DNA of 23,573 nucleotides, taken from positions 373 through 23,945 of the IMG/VR virus record IMGVR_UViG_3300029319_000511. The stretch is one strand, 5' to 3'. Positions 6,475-21,355 of the stretch are shown here, in pieces. A program made the translations under genes and the position numbers. Position 1 is the stretch's first letter, and each line of letters opens with the position of its first letter. The notes beneath the pieces are model-generated. The model did no database searches. It was not told the DNA's origin and saw only the letters and a program-made list of their open reading frames with translations. The stretch comes from a virus.

Positions 6475-6651
6475 CTACTGAAGTCCAGTAGTAGAACCTG
6501 GGAACATTCTGGCTTCAATAAATTCAACTGCTTGGTCGTCTATCGTGTTGTCTGTCTGTTTAGCTATAGCCTTTAACAGATCCACAATTAATCTCTTCAT
6601 TGCTTTGGATTTAATAAAGATTAGAAGGATAGGTTTTAGAATTTTTACCAT
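6475..6651 (-). CDS. Small phage protein (58 residues), amphipathic/hydrophobic N-terminus
   Basis: Reading the minus strand from ATG 6651 gives MVKILKPILLIFIKSKAMKR followed by a helix LIVDLLKAIAKQTDNTIDD, then AVEFIEARMFPG, stopping at 6475 directly against the next ATG. Small proteins with 'VDLLkaia..TDNtiDD..v' are, from memory, common in marine cyanophages. An alternative internal start (MKRLIVDLL) would give 41 residues without the hydrophobic lead. A hairpin CTACTG/CAGTAG (6475-6480, 6486-6491) covers the stop and could affect coupling to the gene downstream. Function unknown. Confidence 0.6.
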   Translation of the reverse strand: MVKILKPILLIFIKSKAMKRLIVDLLKAIAKQTDNTIDDQAVEFIEARMFPGSTTGLQ

Positions 6652-6673
6652 CGTTTTTATGTGTTACTTCCCA

Positions 6674-6702
6674 AACATAGCTAAAATGCTAGTATTAGAC
6701 AA
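6674..6702 (-). promoter_or_regulatory. Candidate leftward promoter
   Basis: On the minus strand, TTGTCT (6702-6697) is followed after 17 bases by TATGTT (6679-6674); each box matches four of six consensus positions. A start near 6667 would give a short leader to the ATG at 6651. It lies in the 65-base divergent gap between 6651 and 6717. Confidence 0.35.
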
Positions 6703-6716
6703 GATTCTTTACTTTT

Positions 6717-6983
6717 ATGGAAGATCAAGAAGAAAAAGAAGGTAATCGTGTCGAAACGATTGTTAAAATTGCTGTTCTCGTATGGAGTGCTTCAATGTTA
6801 ACTCTTTCTTATTACGAACCTCCTAGTGGTAAAAAGATTGTTGACTTCGATCCAACTTTCATCGCTTCGATTTTTTCAGGAAGTCTAGCTTCTTTCGGAC
6901 TACAGGTAGGCAAGAAAAAGAATAATAATGGCAATTCGCCTAAAATAGTAGATAATAAAAACAACAAAGTAGGTATCAAATGA
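6717..6983 (+). CDS. Small two-segment membrane protein, holin candidate
   Basis: An 88-residue protein with a charged N-terminus (EDQEEKEGNR), a first hydrophobic segment IVKIAVLVWSASMLTLSYY (about 15-33), a short loop with PPSGKKIVDFDP, a second segment FIASIFSGSLASFGLQVG (about 48-65), and a Lys/Asn-rich hydrophilic tail. Two membrane segments with a charged tail fit class II holins, and similar proteins occur, as I recall, in marine cyanophages. It heads a plus-strand unit and is coupled by ATGA to the first exported protein. No endolysin gene is adjacent, so the holin role is a guess from topology. Confidence 0.5.
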   Translation: MEDQEEKEGNRVETIVKIAVLVWSASMLTLSYYEPPSGKKIVDFDPTFIASIFSGSLASFGLQVGKKKNNNGNSPKIVDNKNNKVGIK

Positions 6984-7504
6984 AAAAACTACTTCCCTTT
7001 TTATTTGTTATGTCAGCACCAGCTTATGCAGACATAACGCATAGTATTCAATCAGTAGCCAGTGTATCAACATTAGGTGCAAGTGCCACTTCAGAGCGTA
7101 TTGGATCGTCTATCAGCGTTGCAGGTACAAACGTCACACCAAAAGCTAATACAGTAGCGGGTCAAATAGGTTCTCTTGATTTAGCTGATGCTGGTATTAC
7201 CAATGGTGTTCCTACTGTTGACTACGACACTAGCTTTAATGTTGTAAACACAGGAGATGCGTTTTCGGCAAGTGAAACTTACATAGAAGCCGATGCTATC
7301 CCAAGTCTGCTATCTGCCACAGTGACAAACGGGGTAGTTCCATCACTACCCCTCCTTGGTAAAAATACAGTTACATCAGGTGGTGATGTAGGATCTGTAG
7401 CTATCACACTGGATAGTGGGCAAGCATTGACAGTAAACTTATCTGATATGGGTGCTGGTACAACTGCAACTCTTCAATCTACCATCACTCTTGGCCTTGA
7501 TTAA
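6980..7504 (+). CDS. Exported cyanophage-type protein 1
   Basis: A 174-residue protein starting at the ATGA overlap. The signal peptide MKKLLPFLFVMSAPAYA ends in an AYA cleavage motif before Asp18. The mature part is low in charge and rich in Ser, Thr, Ala, Gly and Val, with strand patterns (DITHSIQSVASVSTLGASAT; FNVVNTGDAFSASETYIEAD) and no cysteine. From memory, proteins beginning 'aDiTHSIqSs...' with 'vnTaGdaFsfSe' are widespread in marine cyanophages with unknown role. It would be moved by Sec to the periplasm or cell surface of the infected cell. Its stop overlaps the next ATG (TAATG). Possible roles in lysis, envelope modification or the virion are open. Confidence 0.65.
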   Translation: MKKLLPFLFVMSAPAYADITHSIQSVASVSTLGASATSERIGSSISVAGTNVTPKANTVAGQIGSLDLADAGITNGVPTVDYDTSFNVVNTGDAFSASETYIEADAIPSLLSATVTNGVVPSLPLLGKNTVTSGGDVGSVAITLDSGQALTVNLSDMGAGTTATLQSTITLGLD

Positions 7505-7932
7505 TGAAATGGTTTCTATGCCTGTTTCTTACAGTACCTAGTGCGTATGCTGGAAGTATTACACCAAGGTTTACTACAGGTCAAATGGAATCATCCAGTC
7601 GTAGCGTATCTACGATCCAAGAAACGATTGTTACTGAAAACTATAGAACAGGTTTCAGTTATACAGTTCAAGGCCATAATATTAAAACAGACTCATATAT
7701 CTCACCTGATGCAACATATACAACAAGTCAGAATACAGGCAATGGAGCAGTTAATTTTCAATGGGTGACACCAGAATTAACAAGCAAACCTCACTGGACA
7801 ATAGTAAACGAAGGTTCAGATTTCAGTTTGGTCGAAAATTTTCTTGCACCTGGATTAGATGCAGTTTCCGTAATAAATCGCACACAAACTATAGAGACTC
7901 AAAGCACATCCTTAAGTATCTTTTCCCAATAG
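7504..7932 (+). CDS. Exported cyanophage-type protein 2
   Basis: A 142-residue protein with the signal peptide MKWFLCLFLTVPSAYA, cleaved before Gly17. The mature part is Ser/Thr/Asn-rich, probably beta: SSSRSVSTIQETIVTENY, FSYTVQGHNIKTDSYISPDA, FQWVTPELTSKPHWTIVNEG, and near the end FLAPGLDAVSVINRTQTIE. No cysteines follow the signal. It starts on the previous stop and its last codons overlap the coding region of exported protein 3 in another frame. A heptamer A AAT TTT at 7836-7842 is in the phase for a -1 shift into that frame. The function is unknown; three consecutive secreted products suggest a complex acting outside the inner membrane. Confidence 0.65.
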   Translation: MKWFLCLFLTVPSAYAGSITPRFTTGQMESSSRSVSTIQETIVTENYRTGFSYTVQGHNIKTDSYISPDATYTTSQNTGNGAVNFQWVTPELTSKPHWTIVNEGSDFSLVENFLAPGLDAVSVINRTQTIETQSTSLSIFSQ

Positions 7933-8537
7933 GCTTACTGTTCACAAGTCCTGTTTATGCTAGTAATACAATAAGTTCTCCTTCCGCTTCATCATCTGGA
8001 ACGGTTATTAACAATGGATATCAAACTATAAATGGAAACTTTCCTACTCATAGATTTTCAAATGGAATACAATGCCAACTTCCTACTTTGGCTATCACTC
8101 CCTTTGTTACTAAAGGAGAAAATTTTTCCCTTCCAAGAAGTACAATCGCTCGAACCAATATTTATGACACTGCAAAAGACAGTGATACAGGCCAGTTGCT
8201 TAATCCTGGGAACATTTTATATGTTGCAGAACAGGAACGATTAGATCAAACAGTATATAACCTAAATTATGGAATCACTGCTAGTTTCCAAATACCTTTA
8301 GGCAAAAACTTCAATAAGGAATGTTTAGAAGCTGCCCAAACTTATAGAAAGTATCAAGAGTTTATGCTTGATGCTAAAAAGCTTGAGGTCAATCTTAACC
8401 GTCTTAAAATATGTGCCGAGCAACTAAAACTTGGTGTTAAGTATATAGGAGAAGATGCTGTCAGTTGCCGTAACGTGGTTTTAACAACTGTTCCAAATCA
8501 AGTTATCCCACATAATCATAAACTTAAGACTGATTAG
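7908..8537 (+). CDS. Exported cyanophage-type protein 3, apparent ATC start
   Basis: The signal peptide HILKYLFPIGLLFTSPVYA (ending VYA before Ser) begins within the last codons of exported protein 2. No ATG, GTG or TTG lies at its beginning: the codon where Met is expected is ATC at 7908-7910. The only upstream ATG in frame, 7761, would add 49 Arg/Lys-rich residues antithetical to a signal peptide and overlap gene 2 by 172 bases. Taking ATC gives 209 residues. The mature part has NGIQCQLPTLAITPFV, GQLLNPGNILYVAEQERL and KNFNKECLEAAQ, then a helical region with KICAEQLKLG and further Cys, a layout I recall from marine cyanophages. It overlaps the convergent gene by 14 bases. A sequencing error (ATG to ATC) is possible. 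Confidence 0.55.
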   Translation: MLKYLFPIGLLFTSPVYASNTISSPSASSSGTVINNGYQTINGNFPTHRFSNGIQCQLPTLAITPFVTKGENFSLPRSTIARTNIYDTAKDSDTGQLLNPGNILYVAEQERLDQTVYNLNYGITASFQIPLGKNFNKECLEAAQTYRKYQEFMLDAKKLEVNLNRLKICAEQLKLGVKYIGEDAVSCRNVVLTTVPNQVIPHNHKLKTD

Positions 8538-13161: not shown

Positions 13162-13499
13162 GCTGTGTAACCCTCAGAAACAAATATAGTACCCTCTAAA
13201 TAATATTCTTTGTCACCTGATGCGTTTGTAAGAAGAACATCATATTTTAAAACATTTGGAGTAAAAGTTGCAGTTTGCGTATCTGTTAATGAAATACTTA
13301 CTGAACCTGCTGCTCTATCTGTATAGGCAACACTAAAATCAGCATATTTCGTGGTGCGTGTTTCTTCCCAAACCTGTGCTGCTACAGTAAATCCTGTTAA
13401 ATTTATCGCATTATTACTGCTATCTTTAAATAACAAAGGGATCGCATGATCTGATCTCCTCTGTAATGTAAAATTATACGTTGCTGGTTGAATTGCCAT
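13158..13499 (-). CDS. Beta-sandwich fibre/baseplate accessory protein
   Basis: A 113-residue protein without cysteines. It reads like a single beta-sandwich: YNFTLQRRSDHAIPLLFKD, INLTGFTVAAQVWEE, GSVSISLTDTQTATF, LKYDVLLTNASGDKEYYLEG. The pattern 'g.d..l.l.fkD..g..inLtG..v..qv' is similar to the N-terminal domain of phage baseplate upper (BppU-like) proteins and to small cyanophage fibre partners. It lies between the S74 fibre (start/stop overlapping) and the repeat protein, suggesting it links fibre to tail tip. Function inferred. Confidence 0.55.
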   Translation of the reverse strand: MAIQPATYNFTLQRRSDHAIPLLFKDSSNNAINLTGFTVAAQVWEETRTTKYADFSVAYTDRAAGSVSISLTDTQTATFTPNVLKYDVLLTNASGDKEYYLEGTIFVSEGYTA

Positions 13500-14695
13500 C
13501 AGCTACCTTCAAGTACAGCTACTTTAGCTTCTAATATTTCTATTTTAGCAATAGCTTCTTGTAATGCTGCTGTTAACAATGGAACAAGTTTACTTTGATC
13601 TATTCCTTGTAATATAGGCTCATTATCAGAATCAACTGCATCTTTTGTACCTGTTATTGCTTCTGGGACTGCTGTTACTTCATGCGCAAAGAAACCATCA
13701 ACTGTTTTTGTTGGATCAGCTTTGAAATTAAATCTATAAGGTTTTAATGTTTTTAATCTTGTAATACCATCAGTTATTGCTACTTCATTTTCTTTGATAC
13801 GATAATCTGAAGATGTGTTGTAAGCAGTAGCAGAACCGTTTGTATTAATAGATCCAACATCTCCATTTGTGTTTCTAAAAACAATTGCATTTCTATCAGC
13901 AGCATCTGTTGCGTTTGTACAAATTGCAGCAGTGGTTCCGCCTTGCACAGTTAGCAAGGCATTACTTAAAACGCTAGTTGTTCCAAGACTTAAATTTCCT
14001 GCAGCAATCATTCTAGCCTTTTCACTTCCATCCATTATTATTTGCAAAATGCTGTCTGCTACTGCATTTGTTGGGTCAACACTTATTAATCCCGATGCAC
14101 CTTGGTTGCCAAATAATGTTGAGCCTGTGTTATCTGTAGATTGATAAAAAGAACCTGCATCAGTACTTGTTGCAATCACTGAATCATCTGCGCCAAGATT
14201 TATATCTAATTTTGTACTAGGTGTTGCAGTACCAATTCCAATCCGATCAGCACTGGCATCTAAATAAAATAAATTTGCAACTGTATCACCTTCAATTTTA
14301 AAATCTACATCTGCACCACCTTCATTAAATATTGTTGCGGTTCCAAGCTGTAACCTCGAAACACCTGCTGTGGCAAAGGCCAATGTTTCAGTAGAGTTAT
14401 CTCTGAACATACCTGTTGAATTATTATTTATAAAAGCTAATGACGGATTACTTACAGTACCATCACCGAGAAGATAAACACCAGAGAGAAACAATAAAGA
14501 AATCCATCCATCATTTGAACTATTTCTAATCTTTAATATTCCAGTATTAGTATCAGCCCACCATTGATATGCGTATTTTGTAGCAGGTTCTGTTGCACTT
14601 GAGTTATTACTTACAATCGCAGCAAGGGCATTATTTAAATCTGTTCTAAATGCAGCCCCAGACGCATTGGCTAGGACATAATCATGTGTTGCCAT
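13499..14695 (-). CDS. Tail fibre with peptidase S74 intramolecular chaperone domain
   Basis: A 398-residue fibre. The N-terminal part (LNNALAAIVSNNSSATEPAT, YAYQWWADTNTGILKIRN) is a common tail-attachment module, and the centre is a repetitive beta stem (GIGTATPSTKLDINLGAD). The C-terminus from about residue 294 is a peptidase S74 domain: SSDYRIKENEVAITDG with the Ser296-Lys301 dyad, then LKPYRFNFKADP, GFFAHEVTAVPEAI and SKLVPLLTAALQEAI, ending in a coiled coil. S74 domains trimerise, guide beta-stem folding, then self-cleave just before the catalytic Ser. Cleavage near residue 295/296 is expected. A TATACT box (complement of 14710-14715) in the 56-base gap upstream may be a fibre promoter. 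Confidence 0.85.
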   Translation of the reverse strand: MATHDYVLANASGAAFRTDLNNALAAIVSNNSSATEPATKYAYQWWADTNTGILKIRNSSNDGWISLLFLSGVYLLGDGTVSNPSLAFINNNSTGMFRDNSTETLAFATAGVSRLQLGTATIFNEGGADVDFKIEGDTVANLFYLDASADRIGIGTATPSTKLDINLGADDSVIATSTDAGSFYQSTDNTGSTLFGNQGASGLISVDPTNAVADSILQIIMDGSEKARMIAAGNLSLGTTSVLSNALLTVQGGTTAAICTNATDAADRNAIVFRNTNGDVGSINTNGSATAYNTSSDYRIKENEVAITDGITRLKTLKPYRFNFKADPTKTVDGFFAHEVTAVPEAITGTKDAVDSDNEPILQGIDQSKLVPLLTAALQEAIAKIEILEAKVAVLEGS

Positions 14696-14751: not shown

Positions 14752-17700
14752 TTATCCTCCTTTACCATATCCAATAGCAGAATATTTAAAATTAAGATCT
14801 TTAAAATTATTACTTGAATCTCTTACCTCTATAACAAATTGAGTTCCAGTTATTGAAGTAATTTTAAAATAATCTCCAGAAACAGCACCTTCAAGAGTAA
14901 TTCCTATTGTTGGTAAAAATGCACTACTTCCTCCTAAAGATGCAGTACCTATAAAAAACGGATGTGTAAAAGTTACTGTTTTTGCTGAAGTACCAGATGC
15001 TATAGATGTATTAACTGTTTCCACTCTTCGTCTTACAGTTGCAGTATATCCAAGTTCTGTGACATTAATATTTTGTGCTGGATCGTTTGATGTGAGTATA
15101 GTTTTAAATTTAAATCCTCTGGCTGTATATTCGCCATTTGTAAAAGTATTAAATTGAGTGAAATTAGCTCCATATGTACAAGCTGTTCCACTAGATATTG
15201 TTGTACTTGTAGTAGAAGTTACTGTGAAAGTATTTCCATCTGGTGTTGATTGTATTTCATAATTTCCACTTGTTGCACCACCAGTGAAAGTTATCACAAC
15301 AAAATCACCAACTAAATATCCATGGCTTGCTTTGGTTACAGTAATTGTAAAAGCACTTTGTTCGTAAGTTGCTGAAACTGAAGTTGTAGGTGAAATATCA
15401 GTAGTTGCAACAAGCAGTGATGCGTTTACATCTTCGGCAAGAGTACCGTCAAATTCAGTCCAAGTATCAATATTTGCAGTTCTAGAATCAAGTAAATCAT
15501 TTGGCAAAATACCAAATGTTGTAAATTTTCTTAAAAGTGATAAATTAAATTTTGATTCAAGATCCAAAACATCATTAAATTCATAACTACCGCTTGAAGC
15601 TATAGGACTAGCAAAATCAATATTAGATAAATCATCAATATTTTGTGTTATATCGTCAATTAATAATGTTCCACTTAAAAGCAAACCATCAAAAGTTGCA
15701 TCATAAAAAGTGTTTACTTTTTCCCCTTGAAATGGTGGGCCATCAGTATCTTCTCTTTCAGTAAGTATTATTTGATGAGGTTGTGGATCGGGTGCTGTAA
15801 CAATAATTTTTGCTGCATTACTTGATTTTCTACCACCATCATCAATAAATTTTATGAAATAAGTTCCAGTTAATGCAGGGACTATAGCTTCAGTAGCTGT
15901 GCCTGACAGTCTTGGTATAATATCTATAGAGTTTTGAAAAGTTTCAGTTCGACTTGTATTAGAACTATGTCTGACGGCAATTGTTCCCCCATGTAAAACA
16001 TCAAGATCCGTAGAGGCATCAAACCTTAGTCTGACAAAACGATCTGATATTGGCTCCATTGTTAATCCTGATGGGTCTGCTGGAAGAGCAGTTTTACCAA
16101 CAGCTTGAAAATTAACAGTTGAAGTATTTGAACTTAGAACACCTAAAGAATTAAAAGATTTTACTTTGAATGTATAAGATCCCAAACGTGATTCAAAGAG
16201 TTCAAAATCAGGTCTAGCAAGTCTTATTCTTTCTGGATTGTTATTTTCATATTGAAATTCAAGTAAATATTCCTTAACTCCTTGAACCGGTTGCCATGTA
16301 ACAAATATTTTTGACACAGCTCTATCATTTACAAGAACAATTTGTTCTGTTGCAGCTAAGTTTGATGGAGCATTTTTTTCTCCAATTAATGTTGATATTG
16401 TTTTTGGATTAAATGCAACAGTTGTATCTTCCACTTGAGCATATTTATCTGTGTCATGGATAATTGCAGAAATTGTATATTCAGAATTATCTTTCTCTTC
16501 TATTGATATGACTTTAAAAATTTGCAGCTTAGTTGATGGGCTTTCAATTGCATAAACACTGTTAGCTTGTGGAGTTGATGAAAATGCTGATGATACAGTG
16601 ATTGTTGTACCATCAATAGATGATATTGTTTTGCTTTCAGTAGATCCATCAGGTAAGACAACACTTAAAGTAGATCCTGACTCATGCGATAAATCATTTC
16701 CATCAATAGATCTTGCATCAACAATAATTTGAGTTGTTGACACACCTGTATTTATTCGGCCACCTTTCCTGACCCCAGATCGAACTGAATCTGCAATTGC
16801 AATGATTGTTGCTGGCCTGACAATAACACCAGCTTCAAGTGTAGTCGTAAAAGTAACCACCTCATTTTCTAATAAATTTGAATATAAAAACCATCTACCA
16901 AGACGATTAGCTTGACCAATCGAAGTACAAGCAAAAGCTCTTATCGTTTTTCTTGTTCGACCAAATTTATTAATTGCATCTATTCCTGTTGAACCTGAAC
17001 CCAAGGCTGTAATCTGGTCAGCCGTTATCAACTCAAATTCCATTGATTGTGTTTCATTGTCGAAATATTGAACCTCTACTTCTGTGTATTTGAGCCTTGC
17101 TGCCTGACTTTGATATACAAAACCTTCTTCAGTAACATTTGAATTATTAAAAACGTATTGAGCATCAGATGTATTTGTAGAAGTGTTGGTAGGTCTATCT
17201 TGTGATATTTGTAAAGTCCCATTGCTATAGAAAGGCATAGCGTTCATTACAGAACAAAGATCATTTATCAAGTTATAGGCATCATTTCTCTGATTTAAAA
17301 TCACATTGCAACTAAATCTCGGTTCTGTTGTGTTTGTTATTGGGTCAGTAATTAAAGTACTTGCATAAGCACTTGCCGAATAAAAACTAAAAACATCTAG
17401 ATTCTCTTCTTGTACTATTCCGTCAGTACCACCAAAACCTTTATCTGTTGTCAAAATGTCATACAAAATCCAAGCAGGGTCAGCACACCATTCTTTGTCT
17501 GTTTTGAATGTTCCATTAAATGTATAACCATCTGGATAAATAACCCTTCCATTTGTACTGTCTATTGTTGTTCCATGAGGAACCTTGATCTTAGTTCCTT
17601 TAATTCGGTACATCCGTCTAGGATAGCTTTGAAATTCTTGAGCATTAAATCTTAATGCCACATAAGCAAAACCTTGATATGCACTTGTATCTGTATTTAT

Positions 17701-18663
17701 TTCTGTATAAGAAAGCCAAGTCGTAGAATTTTGCAATCTACTACCTGAGTCATCATCTGTATTCCTAAAAACACTAAGAGTTAAAGGAAAATTCATAGCC
17801 CTCTCAAAAACAATTTCATAATCTTTTGCATAAGGACTTGTAGCTTTTCCATTAGTAATATCTAAAACTACAGGATTTATATTTGTTCCATTATTTTCAA
17901 TTATTCTTATAGATATTTTTACTTCTGCACCTATAACATCACCATCTTCTTTAAACTCTTGAAGCGATGGGAATTGGATTGTAACTCTAACTTTATCAAC
18001 ATCTGTATTTGATATAGTCCTTGATAATCCTTGACTTGTTTTTACAGTGCAGTCACCAGCAAAGGATGTATTTTCAAAGGTTGTGTTTATTACAAATTTT
18101 CCGCTATCAGGAACTGAAACAATATTCTGAGTTTGAGGATTATCAGTTTGAACAGTGCCAAGTGGACTTGTATTTGTCCAATGAACAACCTCACCAATAA
18201 AATATCCATGATTTGCAATTTCAACTAGCATTTGATTTGCTGTTAATGCAACACCACTTACTGTTTGACCATCGCTGCCTGCAAGTGTATAAGTTCCTGT
18301 TTTTGTTGTTGCAAAAGGTGAATTTGTTAAAGCAACCCCAACAGGAATAGTATTTTCTATTGCATTAATTTCTTGAAGTGCTGTTTGATTACTAGCACCA
18401 TTTTTTACAAATACTTCTACATCTGTGAAATTTTCCTGACCTAATGGGTTTTGTAATGGTGTTCTATCTAAAAAAACATTTTTTCTAAAAGTGCTTGAAC
18501 CTACTCCACCTTCATCAAATACCCCATCTATTTCTCCATAACCCAACAAATCAACTACTGTTGCAAACTGTTTTGACCTAAGACCACCATCTATTAAATC
18601 AGGATCAACAACTCTCCCATCAGGTGAATCTCCAAATAGTTGATCGCCTACTAATCTAACCAT
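14752..18663 (-). CDS. J: Lambda gpJ-like tail tip / host specificity protein
   Basis: A 1303-residue protein matching lambda gpJ. The N-terminus has LRSKQFATVVDLLGYGEIDG (29-48) and FLDRTPLQNPLGQENF (64-79). The hub region continues through residues about 215-760. A fibronectin type III domain spans about 765-855 (FVTWQPVQGVKEYLLEFQYE), with a second beta domain to about 958. The C-terminal domain (about 1215-1303) ends FKYSAIGYGKG, a common receptor-contact or trimer-end module. Two insertions lie at about 121-209 and 1097-1165, related to inserts in gpM and gpL. In lambda, gpJ forms the trimeric tip that binds the receptor. It starts at the gpI stop (overlap at 18663) and ends GGAGG-TAA, which may also act as a ribosome site. 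Confidence 0.85.
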   Translation of the reverse strand: MVRLVGDQLFGDSPDGRVVDPDLIDGGLRSKQFATVVDLLGYGEIDGVFDEGGVGSSTFRKNVFLDRTPLQNPLGQENFTDVEVFVKNGASNQTALQEINAIENTIPVGVALTNSPFATTKTGTYTLAGSDGQTVSGVALTANQMLVEIANHGYFIGEVVHWTNTSPLGTVQTDNPQTQNIVSVPDSGKFVINTTFENTSFAGDCTVKTSQGLSRTISNTDVDKVRVTIQFPSLQEFKEDGDVIGAEVKISIRIIENNGTNINPVVLDITNGKATSPYAKDYEIVFERAMNFPLTLSVFRNTDDDSGSRLQNSTTWLSYTEINTDTSAYQGFAYVALRFNAQEFQSYPRRMYRIKGTKIKVPHGTTIDSTNGRVIYPDGYTFNGTFKTDKEWCADPAWILYDILTTDKGFGGTDGIVQEENLDVFSFYSASAYASTLITDPITNTTEPRFSCNVILNQRNDAYNLINDLCSVMNAMPFYSNGTLQISQDRPTNTSTNTSDAQYVFNNSNVTEEGFVYQSQAARLKYTEVEVQYFDNETQSMEFELITADQITALGSGSTGIDAINKFGRTRKTIRAFACTSIGQANRLGRWFLYSNLLENEVVTFTTTLEAGVIVRPATIIAIADSVRSGVRKGGRINTGVSTTQIIVDARSIDGNDLSHESGSTLSVVLPDGSTESKTISSIDGTTITVSSAFSSTPQANSVYAIESPSTKLQIFKVISIEEKDNSEYTISAIIHDTDKYAQVEDTTVAFNPKTISTLIGEKNAPSNLAATEQIVLVNDRAVSKIFVTWQPVQGVKEYLLEFQYENNNPERIRLARPDFELFESRLGSYTFKVKSFNSLGVLSSNTSTVNFQAVGKTALPADPSGLTMEPISDRFVRLRFDASTDLDVLHGGTIAVRHSSNTSRTETFQNSIDIIPRLSGTATEAIVPALTGTYFIKFIDDGGRKSSNAAKIIVTAPDPQPHQIILTEREDTDGPPFQGEKVNTFYDATFDGLLLSGTLLIDDITQNIDDLSNIDFASPIASSGSYEFNDVLDLESKFNLSLLRKFTTFGILPNDLLDSRTANIDTWTEFDGTLAEDVNASLLVATTDISPTTSVSATYEQSAFTITVTKASHGYLVGDFVVITFTGGATSGNYEIQSTPDGNTFTVTSTTSTTISSGTACTYGANFTQFNTFTNGEYTARGFKFKTILTSNDPAQNINVTELGYTATVRRRVETVNTSIASGTSAKTVTFTHPFFIGTASLGGSSAFLPTIGITLEGAVSGDYFKITSITGTQFVIEVRDSSNNFKDLNFKYSAIGYGKGG
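15169..15375 (-). repeat. Insertion-domain copy in gpJ, C-terminal
   Basis: This encodes gpJ residues about 1097-1165: ATYEQSAFTITVTKASHGY, then VITFTGGATSGNYEI and NTFTVTSTTSTTISSG. It has the same HGxxxG...FTxGxAxxGxYxI...FTVT pattern as the inserts in gpL and gpM. Confidence 0.65.
18037..18303 (-). repeat. Insertion-domain copy in gpJ, N-terminal (divergent)
   Basis: This encodes gpJ residues about 121-209: KTGTYTLAGSDGQTVSGVA, then EIANHGYFIGEVVHW and SVPDSGKFVINTTFEN. It keeps TGTY, HGxxxGexV and the final FVxxTxx strand but is longer and diverged from the other copies. Confidence 0.5.
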
Positions 18664-19271
18664 TAGCTTATGCTCTGTCTAACTTGGGCAGTGTCAGTAC
18701 CAGAACTGATTAAAATTGATCCGCTAAAAACAAGACCATATAAAATTGGAACTGGAACTCCGCTTGTATTTACATTTTGAATACCAGAAAAAGTATAAGA
18801 ACCTCTTATTTTCGGATCAATTTCACTTACCTCAGAATTATTTGGTGGTGAAAAAACTGGAGCTATAAGATCTGTCACACCGCCAATAAGCATATTGGTA
18901 CCAACTGTAGCTATAACACCGCTCACAAATTTTGCACTTAAAAAAGTATTTGCAGCAACAAAAGTACCAATTTCTGCAGCAAATCCTGTTCCAATCAAAC
19001 CACCAATAATTGGAATTACAGGCCCTGATCCTGTTGCAACTGGAATAATTTTAATATCACCCTGACCAGACATTGTAAATAAATCTTCTGATATTACAGT
19101 GTTACCCATTTTTATTTTATAAATTTGATCATTCATGTGTTTTTGTAACCCCTCAAAATTAGCCATTAAAAAGCTTATGGCTTGTTGCGGTGATTTTACA
19201 GCAGCTTCAAAATATGATTTGCCTAAAAACTGTCTTAATTTTCCATAAACTTTTATTTTTTTAAGCTGCAT
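18663..19271 (-). CDS. I: Lambda gpI-like tail assembly protein
   Basis: A 202-residue protein. The N-terminus (LKKIKVYGKLRQFLGKSYFE through IKIIPVATGSG, residues 3-82) is the ubiquitin-like domain of gpI. A hydrophobic, glycine-rich region follows (VIPIIGGLIGTGFAAEIGTF, about 85-104, and SGVIATVGTNMLIGGVTDL). The C-terminus SYTFSGIQNVNTSGVPVPIL and LYGLVFSGSILISSG is the hallmark of gpI relatives. In lambda, gpI joins gpJ, gpK and gpL in forming the tail tip and is probably released during assembly. It overlaps gpK upstream and gpJ downstream, in the lambda order. Confidence 0.85.
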   Translation of the reverse strand: MQLKKIKVYGKLRQFLGKSYFEAAVKSPQQAISFLMANFEGLQKHMNDQIYKIKMGNTVISEDLFTMSGQGDIKIIPVATGSGPVIPIIGGLIGTGFAAEIGTFVAANTFLSAKFVSGVIATVGTNMLIGGVTDLIAPVFSPPNNSEVSEIDPKIRGSYTFSGIQNVNTSGVPVPILYGLVFSGSILISSGTDTAQVRQSIS

Positions 19272-19977
19272 ATCTATAAACCCCTCTCAGTGCTTGTTGG
19301 TATCTTAAATCAAAAGGTTCTCTACAGCTCAAAGTTTTTATATTATGATTTAATATCATGTTATCACCAATATAAACAGCTACATGATCTAAATTACCTG
19401 TGACTGATTGAAAAAGTAAAACATCGCCAACTTCTATATTTTTATTACATTCTTGTTTTTTAAATCCTGTAATCGGCAGTCCTTTTTCAAATAAAGGGTT
19501 TTCTATAAAATCTTTTATTCGTTTTGGTCTTTTCCATTCTTTCAATTTTATTTTCTTTGTTTCATAAAACCAATCAGAAATTATACTCCAGCAATCATAT
19601 TTACCCCAAATAAATCTTCGCCCAATCAATGAAGGTGCTTTCCAACCAGAAGGCTTTAAAAACTCCCAATGATTATGCTCAAGACTATAAATATAATATG
19701 GAAAGCCAAGATGTTCACAAGCTGCTCGATCGGTGTCTGAGGGTGTTGCAGCCCCTACAGGATGACTATGAATTACACCTATGATTTCTCCTGTATCTTC
19801 ACATTCTGCCCAATCATCTGGATCAAGAACAAAAAATTCAAATTTACCTTCTGCCAAATTTTTACAAGGCCAAAAAGTTTCTTTACCTTTTATGATGGCT
19901 AACAATCCACAAGCCTCTTCAGGTGCTTGTTTTGCTGCATATTTTATAAAAGATTCTTTCCAAGACATTTTAAGCAT
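19261..19977 (-). CDS. K: Lambda gpK-like tail protein with JAMM and NlpC/P60 domains
   Basis: A 238-residue protein with two enzymatic domains. N-terminal: a JAMM/Mov34 metalloprotease fold with PEEACGLLAI (Glu20/Glu21) and IHSHPVGAATPSDTD, giving His70, His72, Ser80 and Asp83, the zinc-site residues. C-terminal: NlpC/P60 with GKYDCWSIISDWF (Cys129), then GDVLLFQSV, LDHVAVYIGDNMILNH (His198; Asn210/His211). In lambda, gpK is part of the tail tip and may cut peptidoglycan cross-links or process a tail protein. All catalytic residues look intact. The start could be ATG 19977 (8 bases into gpL) or 19968 (MSWKESF), which leaves no overlap. Confidence 0.88.
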   Translation of the reverse strand: MLKMSWKESFIKYAAKQAPEEACGLLAIIKGKETFWPCKNLAEGKFEFFVLDPDDWAECEDTGEIIGVIHSHPVGAATPSDTDRAACEHLGFPYYIYSLEHNHWEFLKPSGWKAPSLIGRRFIWGKYDCWSIISDWFYETKKIKLKEWKRPKRIKDFIENPLFEKGLPITGFKKQECNKNIEVGDVLLFQSVTGNLDHVAVYIGDNMILNHNIKTLSCREPFDLRYQQALRGVYRYAA

Positions 19978-20788
19978 TTACAAAAGTACCTACCCCTGGA
20001 AAATCAGCTCTAGTAACAAGTTTTTTAGGTGCGTTAACACCAAACAAATCAAAAGATCCTACTAACTCAAAAACAACAATATCTCTATTTTCAATATTTT
20101 TTTTCTCAATAAAATAAACTTCCCTTGGCAGTTCAGCCGTTGGATCTACTGAGCCGACTTTATATGGATTAACATTTGATGGAAAATTTGCCTCATCAAG
20201 AAATCTTGCCATAGTACGCCTCCTAGTAACTTTTGCGCTTGTAAGATCACAAAAAGGAGTAGTTTGATTTGTAAGTTGTAATATTGCAGTAATAGTTCCT
20301 AACAAGTTAGAAAATGTGATTGTAGGTCTTGGAAGCTTTCCTTTGCCTGTATATTTATAGCCCTCTGCTTTTACTGGGATTTTTGTGTATGTATTTGACT
20401 GCCAAATTATATCGGTGCTATCTTTCATGTTATTGCCATTATGAAAAAGATAAACTGTAGGCACTGAAGGAGTTACATTTGAATTAAATGAAACAGCACC
20501 ACTGGTTGATTGTGAAACAGTGGCAGTAACAGTAAATTGATTTGTAGATTCAGTTTGTATTGTATATACTCCATCTTCAGCATTACCAGATGTAAAATCT
20601 AAAACAATAATCGTTCCAACTGGCATACCATGCCCAGTTGCACTAATTGTGATTGTAGTTCCGCTTTGTGTGTAAGTACCAGTTTGAGCAGTTTTTTCAA
20701 AATGCAAATCAGGTACTAATTCAACAGAAAATAACTCAATGATTGATTTATTTGTAAGTTGTTGTAATTCAGTTACAGGATTTGCCAT
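19970..20788 (-). CDS. L: Lambda gpL-like tail tip protein, no Cys-rich C-terminus
   Basis: A 272-residue homologue of lambda gpL. The matching core is IIWQSNTYTKIPVKAEGYKY, GKLPRPTITFSNLLGTITAI, TRRRTMARFLDEANFP, NPYKVGSVDPTAELPREVYF, and ending ELVGSFDLFGVNAPKKL. Lambda gpL continues with a cysteine-rich C-terminus that binds an iron-sulfur cluster. Here the protein stops at VGTFVNA with only Cys180, and gpK begins at once, so the domain is absent rather than frameshifted. Residues about 33-102 are the recurrent insertion domain, placed early between SVELVPDLHFEK and VPTVYLFHNG. The role is in the tail tip between gpM and gpJ. Confidence 0.8.
   Translation of the reverse strand: MANPVTELQQLTNKSIIELFSVELVPDLHFEKTAQTGTYTQSGTTITISATGHGMPVGTIIVLDFTSGNAEDGVYTIQTESTNQFTVTATVSQSTSGAVSFNSNVTPSVPTVYLFHNGNNMKDSTDIIWQSNTYTKIPVKAEGYKYTGKGKLPRPTITFSNLLGTITAILQLTNQTTPFCDLTSAKVTRRRTMARFLDEANFPSNVNPYKVGSVDPTAELPREVYFIEKKNIENRDIVVFELVGSFDLFGVNAPKKLVTRADFPGVGTFVNA
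20483..20692 (-). repeat. Insertion-domain copy in gpL
   Basis: This encodes gpL residues about 33-102: TGTYTQSGTTITISATGHG, then VLDFTSGNAEDGVYTIQTE and QFTVTATVSQSTSGAV. It is closest to the gpM copy, with near-identical DNA words such as CACAAAGCG and TTTACTGT. Confidence 0.75.
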
Positions 20789-21355
20789 TTACGGTTCAAA
20801 AACCTCTCTAAAAGTAGTATTAATTATTGCTCTATTGTTATATGGTATTGTTTTCGTCCAAGAATCACAAACAAACTGCCCTGCACCAGAAAGAGTAATT
20901 GAAACATTACCGCTATTTGTAGCAGATGAGGCAGCAGTTACAGTAAAGGCATCATCAGATGTCACAGATGCAACAGCAAAAGTACCATCAGTTGCAGAAC
21001 CAGATGTATAATCAATAGTTAAAATATCACCAATTCCAACGCCATGTGATGTGATAGAAATTGTCACAGTGGTTGCGCTTTGTGAGTATGTCCCTGTTTT
21101 TGTAAAACCTTCGGCAGGTGGTGTAAATGTAAAGCTTGCCTGATCGTTTACTCTACTTCTTAAAAACCCCTCTATGACATCTGCTTCGGTCTCAGACACA
21201 TTAAAAGTAAGGTCATATACTTTTGGGTCTTGAGTTAGCGGAAGACCATACAAAGCTCTAAACTCATATCCATCGCCAAGAGAAGAAACCCTAATCTTAG
21301 GACTGCTGTTTTTTCTCATCCCATAAGTAGGGGTGATTGAAGGGAAAGTAGCCAT
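20789..21355 (-). CDS. M: Lambda gpM-like minor tail protein
   Basis: A 188-residue homologue of lambda gpM. The N-terminus FPSITPTYGMRKNSSPKIRV and GDGYEFRALYGLPLTQDPKV (about 28-46) and the C-terminus WTKTIPYNNRAIINTTFREV (166-185) are family features. The canonical protein is about 110 residues. The excess is one insertion at about 86-157, sitting exactly between FTFTPP and QFVCDSW, where the core strand pair normally joins. In lambda gpM joins the tail tube to the tip complex. It abuts the tape measure gene (stop at 21356 on the same strand). Confidence 0.83.
   Translation of the reverse strand: MATFPSITPTYGMRKNSSPKIRVSSLGDGYEFRALYGLPLTQDPKVYDLTFNVSETEADVIEGFLRSRVNDQASFTFTPPAEGFTKTGTYSQSATTVTISITSHGVGIGDILTIDYTSGSATDGTFAVASVTSDDAFTVTAASSATNSGNVSITLSGAGQFVCDSWTKTIPYNNRAIINTTFREVFEP
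20885..21100 (-). repeat. Insertion-domain copy in gpM
   Basis: This encodes gpM residues about 86-157: TGTYSQSATTVTISITSHG, then TIDYTSGSATDGTFAVAS and AFTVTAASSATNSGNV. Clean boundaries in a small conserved protein make it the clearest definition of the domain. Confidence 0.75.

Follow-up and report, generated by a model that had tools for sequence, protein, structure and literature searches.

The tail-tip proteins of the marine phage described here contain the same inserted domain at four places, a small beta-barrel some 75 residues long and remotely related to the beta-barrel of endosialidases: once in gpM, once in gpL and twice in gpJ. The window (the whole 23,573-nucleotide stretch that was analysed) is part of a 23.9-kb virus record, IMGVR_UViG_3300029319_000511. 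Its tail genes lie on the minus strand in the order known from lambda, that is tape measure, gpM, gpL, gpK, gpI and gpJ, as identified with Pfam and PHROGs (Table 1). A first-pass annotation made from the sequence had described the three carrier proteins as adjacent, but gpK and gpI separate gpL from gpJ. Two other regions of the window are of note. Downstream of gpJ, positions 13499-14695 encode a protein that has, near its C-terminus, a Peptidase_S74 (endosialidase intramolecular chaperone) region with an E-value of 5.5e-4, slightly below the Pfam cut-off. On the plus strand, positions 7504-7932 match DUF6322 (5e-24) within a small cluster of signal-peptide-like proteins.

Table 1. Tail-tip genes of the window and the copies of the inserted domain that they carry.
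Feature	Position	Strand	Basis
gpM homologue (lambda gpM / distal-tail ring protein), 188 aa, core 1-82 + 158-188	20789..21355	-	PF05939 50 bits, cut-off 39
gpL homologue, 272 aa	19970..20788	-	PF05100 97 bits, cut-off 25; TIGR01600 112 bits, cut-off 70.75
gpK homologue (JAB + NlpC/P60)	19261..19977	-	Pfam
gpI homologue, without a copy in the window	18663..19271	-	PHROGs
gpJ homologue (tip attachment protein), 1303 aa	14752..18663	-	PF24801 86 bits; PF13550; phrog_31 5e-154
Copy 1: beta-barrel insert, gpM residues 84-157	20885..21106	-	blastp/HMM; predicted fold; empty sites in relatives
Copy 2: insert, gpL residues 33-106, near start of N-terminal (HDI) domain	20471..20692	-	blastp
Copy 3: insert, gpJ residues 1094-1167, loop LLVATTDxxPx / FTQFNTF	15163..15384	-	blastp; junction class
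Copy 4 (diverged): gpJ residues ~117-208, nested in FNIII-A	18040..18315	-	indel; predicted fold; L128 orthologue

Sequence comparison puts it beyond doubt that copies 1 to 3 form one domain family, as the first-pass annotation had proposed. In a blastp comparison among the window's own proteins, the gpL and gpM copies are 49% identical over 71 aa (E 3e-15), and the gpJ C-terminal copy matches that of gpM at E 2e-9 and that of gpL at E 5e-9. The local-alignment scores of these three copies stand at 12-18 SD over 1000 shuffles. The junction class of copy 3 recurs in 82 distinct copies. A longer, diverged copy had also been proposed at gpJ residues 121-209. Its own sequence is too diverged to establish this: it scores weakly against shuffles (z 1.9-5.6), and a profile built without any copy from the gpJ N-terminal site retrieves it at E 0.18 in a 10,000-sequence search. 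The same profile, in a search of the same size, retrieves the orthologue at this site in a related locus (L128) at 2e-5. Because of this match and the predicted fold, residues ~117-208 are counted as a diverged fourth copy. A candidate fifth copy at the gpJ C-terminus (residues 1223-1303) is not supported, with z from -0.3 to 2.0 and best relatives at E >= 0.4.

Comparison with relatives shows that the segments are insertions at defined loops in gpM, in gpL and at the gpJ N-terminal site. In empty relatives, found by a scan with an insert-free gpM query, FTFTPPGESSSSEFVCESW stands in place of the window's FTFTPPAEGF[insert]QFVCDSW, and the interruption point first noted, between FTFTPP and QFVCDSW, is correct. 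At this site gpM is uninterrupted in lambda (109 aa), SSU5, S-CBS4, S-H1 and AG-345-A17, and gpL lacks the insert in these same five and in MED4-184. The gpM, gpL and gpJ N-terminal sites are all empty in Marine virus AG-345-A17, while MED4-184 has the gpM insert and an empty gpL (190 aa). The gpJ N-terminal site is a clean indel, filled in 11 of 26 aligned relatives and empty in the other 15. Evidence from empty homologues thus covers three of the four sites; at the gpJ C-terminal site an identical junction is seen in many relatives. These insert-free proteins refute, for the three sites, the alternative that the segments are ordinary family cores common to all homologues, and leave it with next to no probability. 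The cultured Prochlorococcus phages MED4-184 and MED4-117 (L024:19740-20312, L025:3278-3850), with gpM and gpJ C-terminal copies and an empty gpL, represent an intermediate state that is tractable in the laboratory. A closer relative, with an 82% identical gpM, lies on a contig of the single cell AG-426-I04 (uncultured Alphaproteobacteria); the Prochlorococcus phages are more distant kin, and neither settles the host of the window's phage.

Structure prediction covered two copies, those of gpM and of the gpJ N-terminal site; sequence homology joins the remaining two, in gpL and in the gpJ C-terminal region, to them. The gpM model (pLDDT 89) splits cleanly into core and insert. Its core superposes on lambda gpM (8iyk_E) along the full 109 residues (Z 13.5, 1.8 A), which together with the PF05939 score places the protein in the lambda gpM distal-tail family. 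The insert is predicted to be a six-stranded barrel with strands at 84-93, 96-100, 111-116, 124-133, 136-140 and 148-155. Residues 82-156 fit residues 255-338 of the phi92 endosialidase (4hiz) with Z 9.7, 2.0 A and 27% identity, and they also fit endoNF 424-506 (Z 8.7). The model of gpJ 1-400 has a pLDDT of 67.5 overall and of 72-90 within and around the insert. Here residues 117-212 fit phi92 255-340 (Z 8.8) and endoNF 424-506 (Z 8.6). The flanks match lambda FNIII-A 83-207 (Z 16.6), which places the insert within FNIII-A. In the models the six strands of this copy follow the order of the gpM copy, with an extra hairpin behind the first strand. The two modelled copies thus share one predicted fold, and the central claim of the first-pass annotation, one domain at several tip sites, holds on both fold and sequence.

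The inserted domain is a remote relative of the endosialidase beta-barrel. The sole sensible Pfam family is PF12195 (End_beta_barrel), which gpM (25.6 bits) and gpJ (22 bits) match below its gathering score of 35 bits and for which gpL is not listed. A profile of 19 copies searched against all PDB sequences gives significant homology to phi92 4hiz (1.3e-5) and K1F 1v0e (2.9e-4). The endosialidase barrel (also 3ju4 for K1F) resembles the inserts in sequence, shares their fold to within ~2 A, and has in common with them the HGxxxGD motif with the following loop. It differs in being part of a capsule-degrading tailspike and in contacting polysialic acid, whereas the inserts interrupt lambda-type tip proteins. 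One of the three polysialic-acid sites of K1F endoNF lies in its barrel, a host-discrimination hotspot in which S460 and S468 discriminate hosts (PMC12632334). Counted along the profile alignment, with an inferred 1v0e chain start of 245 that is consistent with both serines, S460 and S468 align with the two Asp of lDFTSGxATDG, the conserved loop of the inserts. These contact residues are not conserved, the aligned positions being mostly Asp in the phage inserts. As aligned, the loop appears common to the inserts and the K1F barrel while its chemistry differs, and sialic-acid binding is therefore not expected. The E1 FCCH domains (Uba6 7sol, Uba1) also fit the gpM insert, with Z ~9-9.7 over 72-75 residues at 2 A. 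They belong to eukaryotic enzymes and are 10-18% identical to the inserts. The annotation name 'E1 FCCH domain' was set aside as a family name because the fold agrees but there is no sequence match in Pfam or PDB.

The copies are not recent duplicates of each other. Shared DNA words had been taken as a sign of fairly recent duplication between gpL and gpM, but the longest word common to these two copies has 10 nt, equal to the null mean of 10.0, and such words are no more frequent than codon usage predicts. The gpM and gpL copies use identical codons at 19 identical residues where 15.0 +- 2.7 are expected. A nucleotide self-comparison of 14752-21355, which had been suggested as a check, yields only short weak repeat families, none spanning a whole copy. 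On a tree of 80 copies the site labels need 12 changes (minimum 11, shuffles 48), so the copies group by site and not by phage; this tree does not give the order among sites, and the columns are too few to tell spread within one genome from separate entry from other phages. Since the sharing of DNA fits codon usage and the copies cluster by site, recent duplication is rejected. In the comparison drawn from the best 80 each of the gpM, gpL and gpJ scans, no phage has a gpL insert without a gpM insert across the loci scanned. When the gpJ and gpM genes are both complete, a gpJ C-terminal copy always has a gpM copy beside it, and every gpJ N-terminal copy is accompanied by a gpL copy wherever the two can be read. 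The gpJ of locus L242 was considered as an exception and rejected, its insert being a different domain. This nested presence is most simply explained by a stepwise build-up. One change of state (support 99) accounts for the gpL insert on the core trees, and two account for the gpM insert. Identity of insert versus core is 76% versus 73% in gpM and 73% versus 78% in gpL; the inserts change about as fast as the cores, unlike a fast-changing specificity determinant.

The domain has other homes. Among unique complete ORFs from the best 80 of each scan, which give counts and not frequencies, it is present in 124 of 192 gpM, 47 of 173 gpL, 5 of 177 gpI and 0 of 150 gpK. In the gpI of some relatives the copy is at the C-terminus, and gpJ has at least six insertion sites across relatives. 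The major capsid protein of P-SSP2 and P-SSP3 contains the domain in a length-variable stretch (437 aa versus 375 in P-SSP7). Tail tube B has it at two sites, one of them cleanly empty in P-SSP7, and it also occurs in P-HM1 fibres and other virion proteins. Among the open-licence papers searched, none describes repeated insertion of this domain into proteins of the tip. Such a spread over many different carriers and gpJ sites, and its sporadic presence, would suit a mere passenger, a stably folded domain that moves by recombination into loops able to tolerate it and persists while bringing little benefit. We regard this as rather improbable, since motif residues are conserved over deep divergence, the gpM and gpJ C-terminal sites have long retained their copies, and changes of state on the core trees are few.

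At two of the loops another kind of domain also occurs. In L242 an insert occupies the same gpL loop as the barrel, between LDYALH and IYRFH, and another occupies the same FNIII-A loop of gpJ. The two are alike (alignment score 136) and unrelated to the barrel; they come from one locus, and one of them is weakly CBM5/12-like at E 0.03, below the cut-off. This domain, with the pattern FKCTVAGQxGxxEPxxF...DNxxTW (L242:4354-5283, 6579-8348), is also found at the gpL N-terminus. A gpL of the AG-345-A17 type (L030:7418-8410, L180:4345-5337, L171:711-1691) carries a different insert of ~110-130 aa at another site, with the motif TYxFxxSDxTNxxHPLxIKSDAGG...LRYYCxxHGNxMG. It has no match in Pfam and looks cupredoxin-like. 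We tentatively propose, at somewhat short of an even chance, that fixed sockets in the lambda-type tip of these marine siphophages (the hairpins of the gpM ring, of gpL HDI and of gpJ FNIII-A, and the gpJ C-terminal region) take interchangeable small beta domains. The barrels, loaded in nested order, would form a multivalent adhesive collar of low affinity; in another lineage two of the sockets would have received a CBM5/12-like domain.

The main rival view of the role of the barrels is structural decoration: they would contact one another or adjoining proteins of the tip, making it stiffer or sealing it, and would have no ligand on the host. The core-like rate of change speaks somewhat for this, as do the nested and retained presence of the copies and the occurrence of the family in proteins for which a role in stability is plausible, a major capsid protein and tail tube B. 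The FCCH fold, moreover, is not known to be tied to sugar binding. Yet relatives whose tips are otherwise similar leave each of three sites empty, so the domain is not needed for assembly there, and in L242 two of these loops hold a domain unrelated in sequence, so a tolerant outer loop fits better than a specific contact. We hold this alternative to be possible but doubtful. We give an even chance to the reading that the domain is a mobile barrel, added stepwise to tip loops, which probably serves as a low-affinity, glycan-type adhesive decoration. On this reading the barrel entered the gpM ring, the gpL hub, gpJ FNIII-A and the gpJ C-terminal region one after another. The barrels would sit on the outside of the tip, judging from the location of the loops, and their multiplicity may give many weak contacts with cell-envelope glycans. 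The lambda tip has a ring of six gpM subunits, and its gpL and gpJ are trimers (PMC10721106); with these subunit numbers the window's tip could therefore display ~15 barrels. Adsorption would be raised without host range being set, as with the carbohydrate-binding modules (CBMs) of 'evolved Dit'. Dit inserts aid (PMC10688798; PMC6669499) and restore (PMC10688798) adsorption in lactococcal phages. The reading draws on the filled and empty sites of relatives and on the kinship of the inserts, in fold and sequence, with the endosialidase barrels. Adhesion is suggested by analogy with the endoNF barrel, a polysialic-acid site whose S460 and S468 align within the conserved loop of the inserts. It is also favoured by the presence of the family on the capsid, tail tube B, gpI and fibres of other marine phages, and by the weakly CBM5/12-like domain that fills the same gpL and gpJ loops in L242. 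Against it stand the aspartates in place of the serines, the core-like rate, and the E1 FCCH domains, which have an endosialidase-barrel-like fold and are not known to have a sugar ligand.

The analysis carries the 'evolved Dit' idea beyond phages of lactic acid bacteria, to ocean phages that are abundant and have a tip of lambda type, and shows the order in which one adhesive-type domain joined successive tip proteins. A single domain links the tip, the capsid, the tail tube and capsule-degrading tailspikes. Cultured carriers, the Prochlorococcus phages MED4-184/P-HS2, P-SSP2 and P-SSP3, make the idea testable. As in the evolved Dit system, in which CBMs occur in lactococcal phage Dit, major tail and neck proteins (PMC6669499, PMC10688798, PMC7291167), a small beta domain here interrupts a loop of the distal-tail ring protein and sits in further virion proteins too, variably present among relatives; gpM is a Dit ring protein with an insert that relatives lack. 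The evolved Dit carries a BppA-type CBM fold in galectin-domain loops, whereas the tip here is of lambda type and its inserts lie in gpL, in gpJ and directly in the ring domain, and the gpM model consists of a ring core and an endosialidase-type barrel, with no galectin domain. T5 pb9 (4jmq, 6f2m) resembles gpM in having a ring core with one extra beta-barrel, and its whole chain matches the fold of the gpM model (PMC7291167). The extra barrel of pb9 is an OB-fold and not an endosialidase barrel, with ~10% identity in the fold alignment. A 2006 account by Fraser et al., cited in PMC10684548, is said to describe promiscuous Ig-like domains, small beta domains of one kind that recur in the capsid, tail and fibre proteins of phages unrelated to each other. 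The inserts have a different fold and, unlike the Ig-like domains, accumulate several per tail tip in a nested order.
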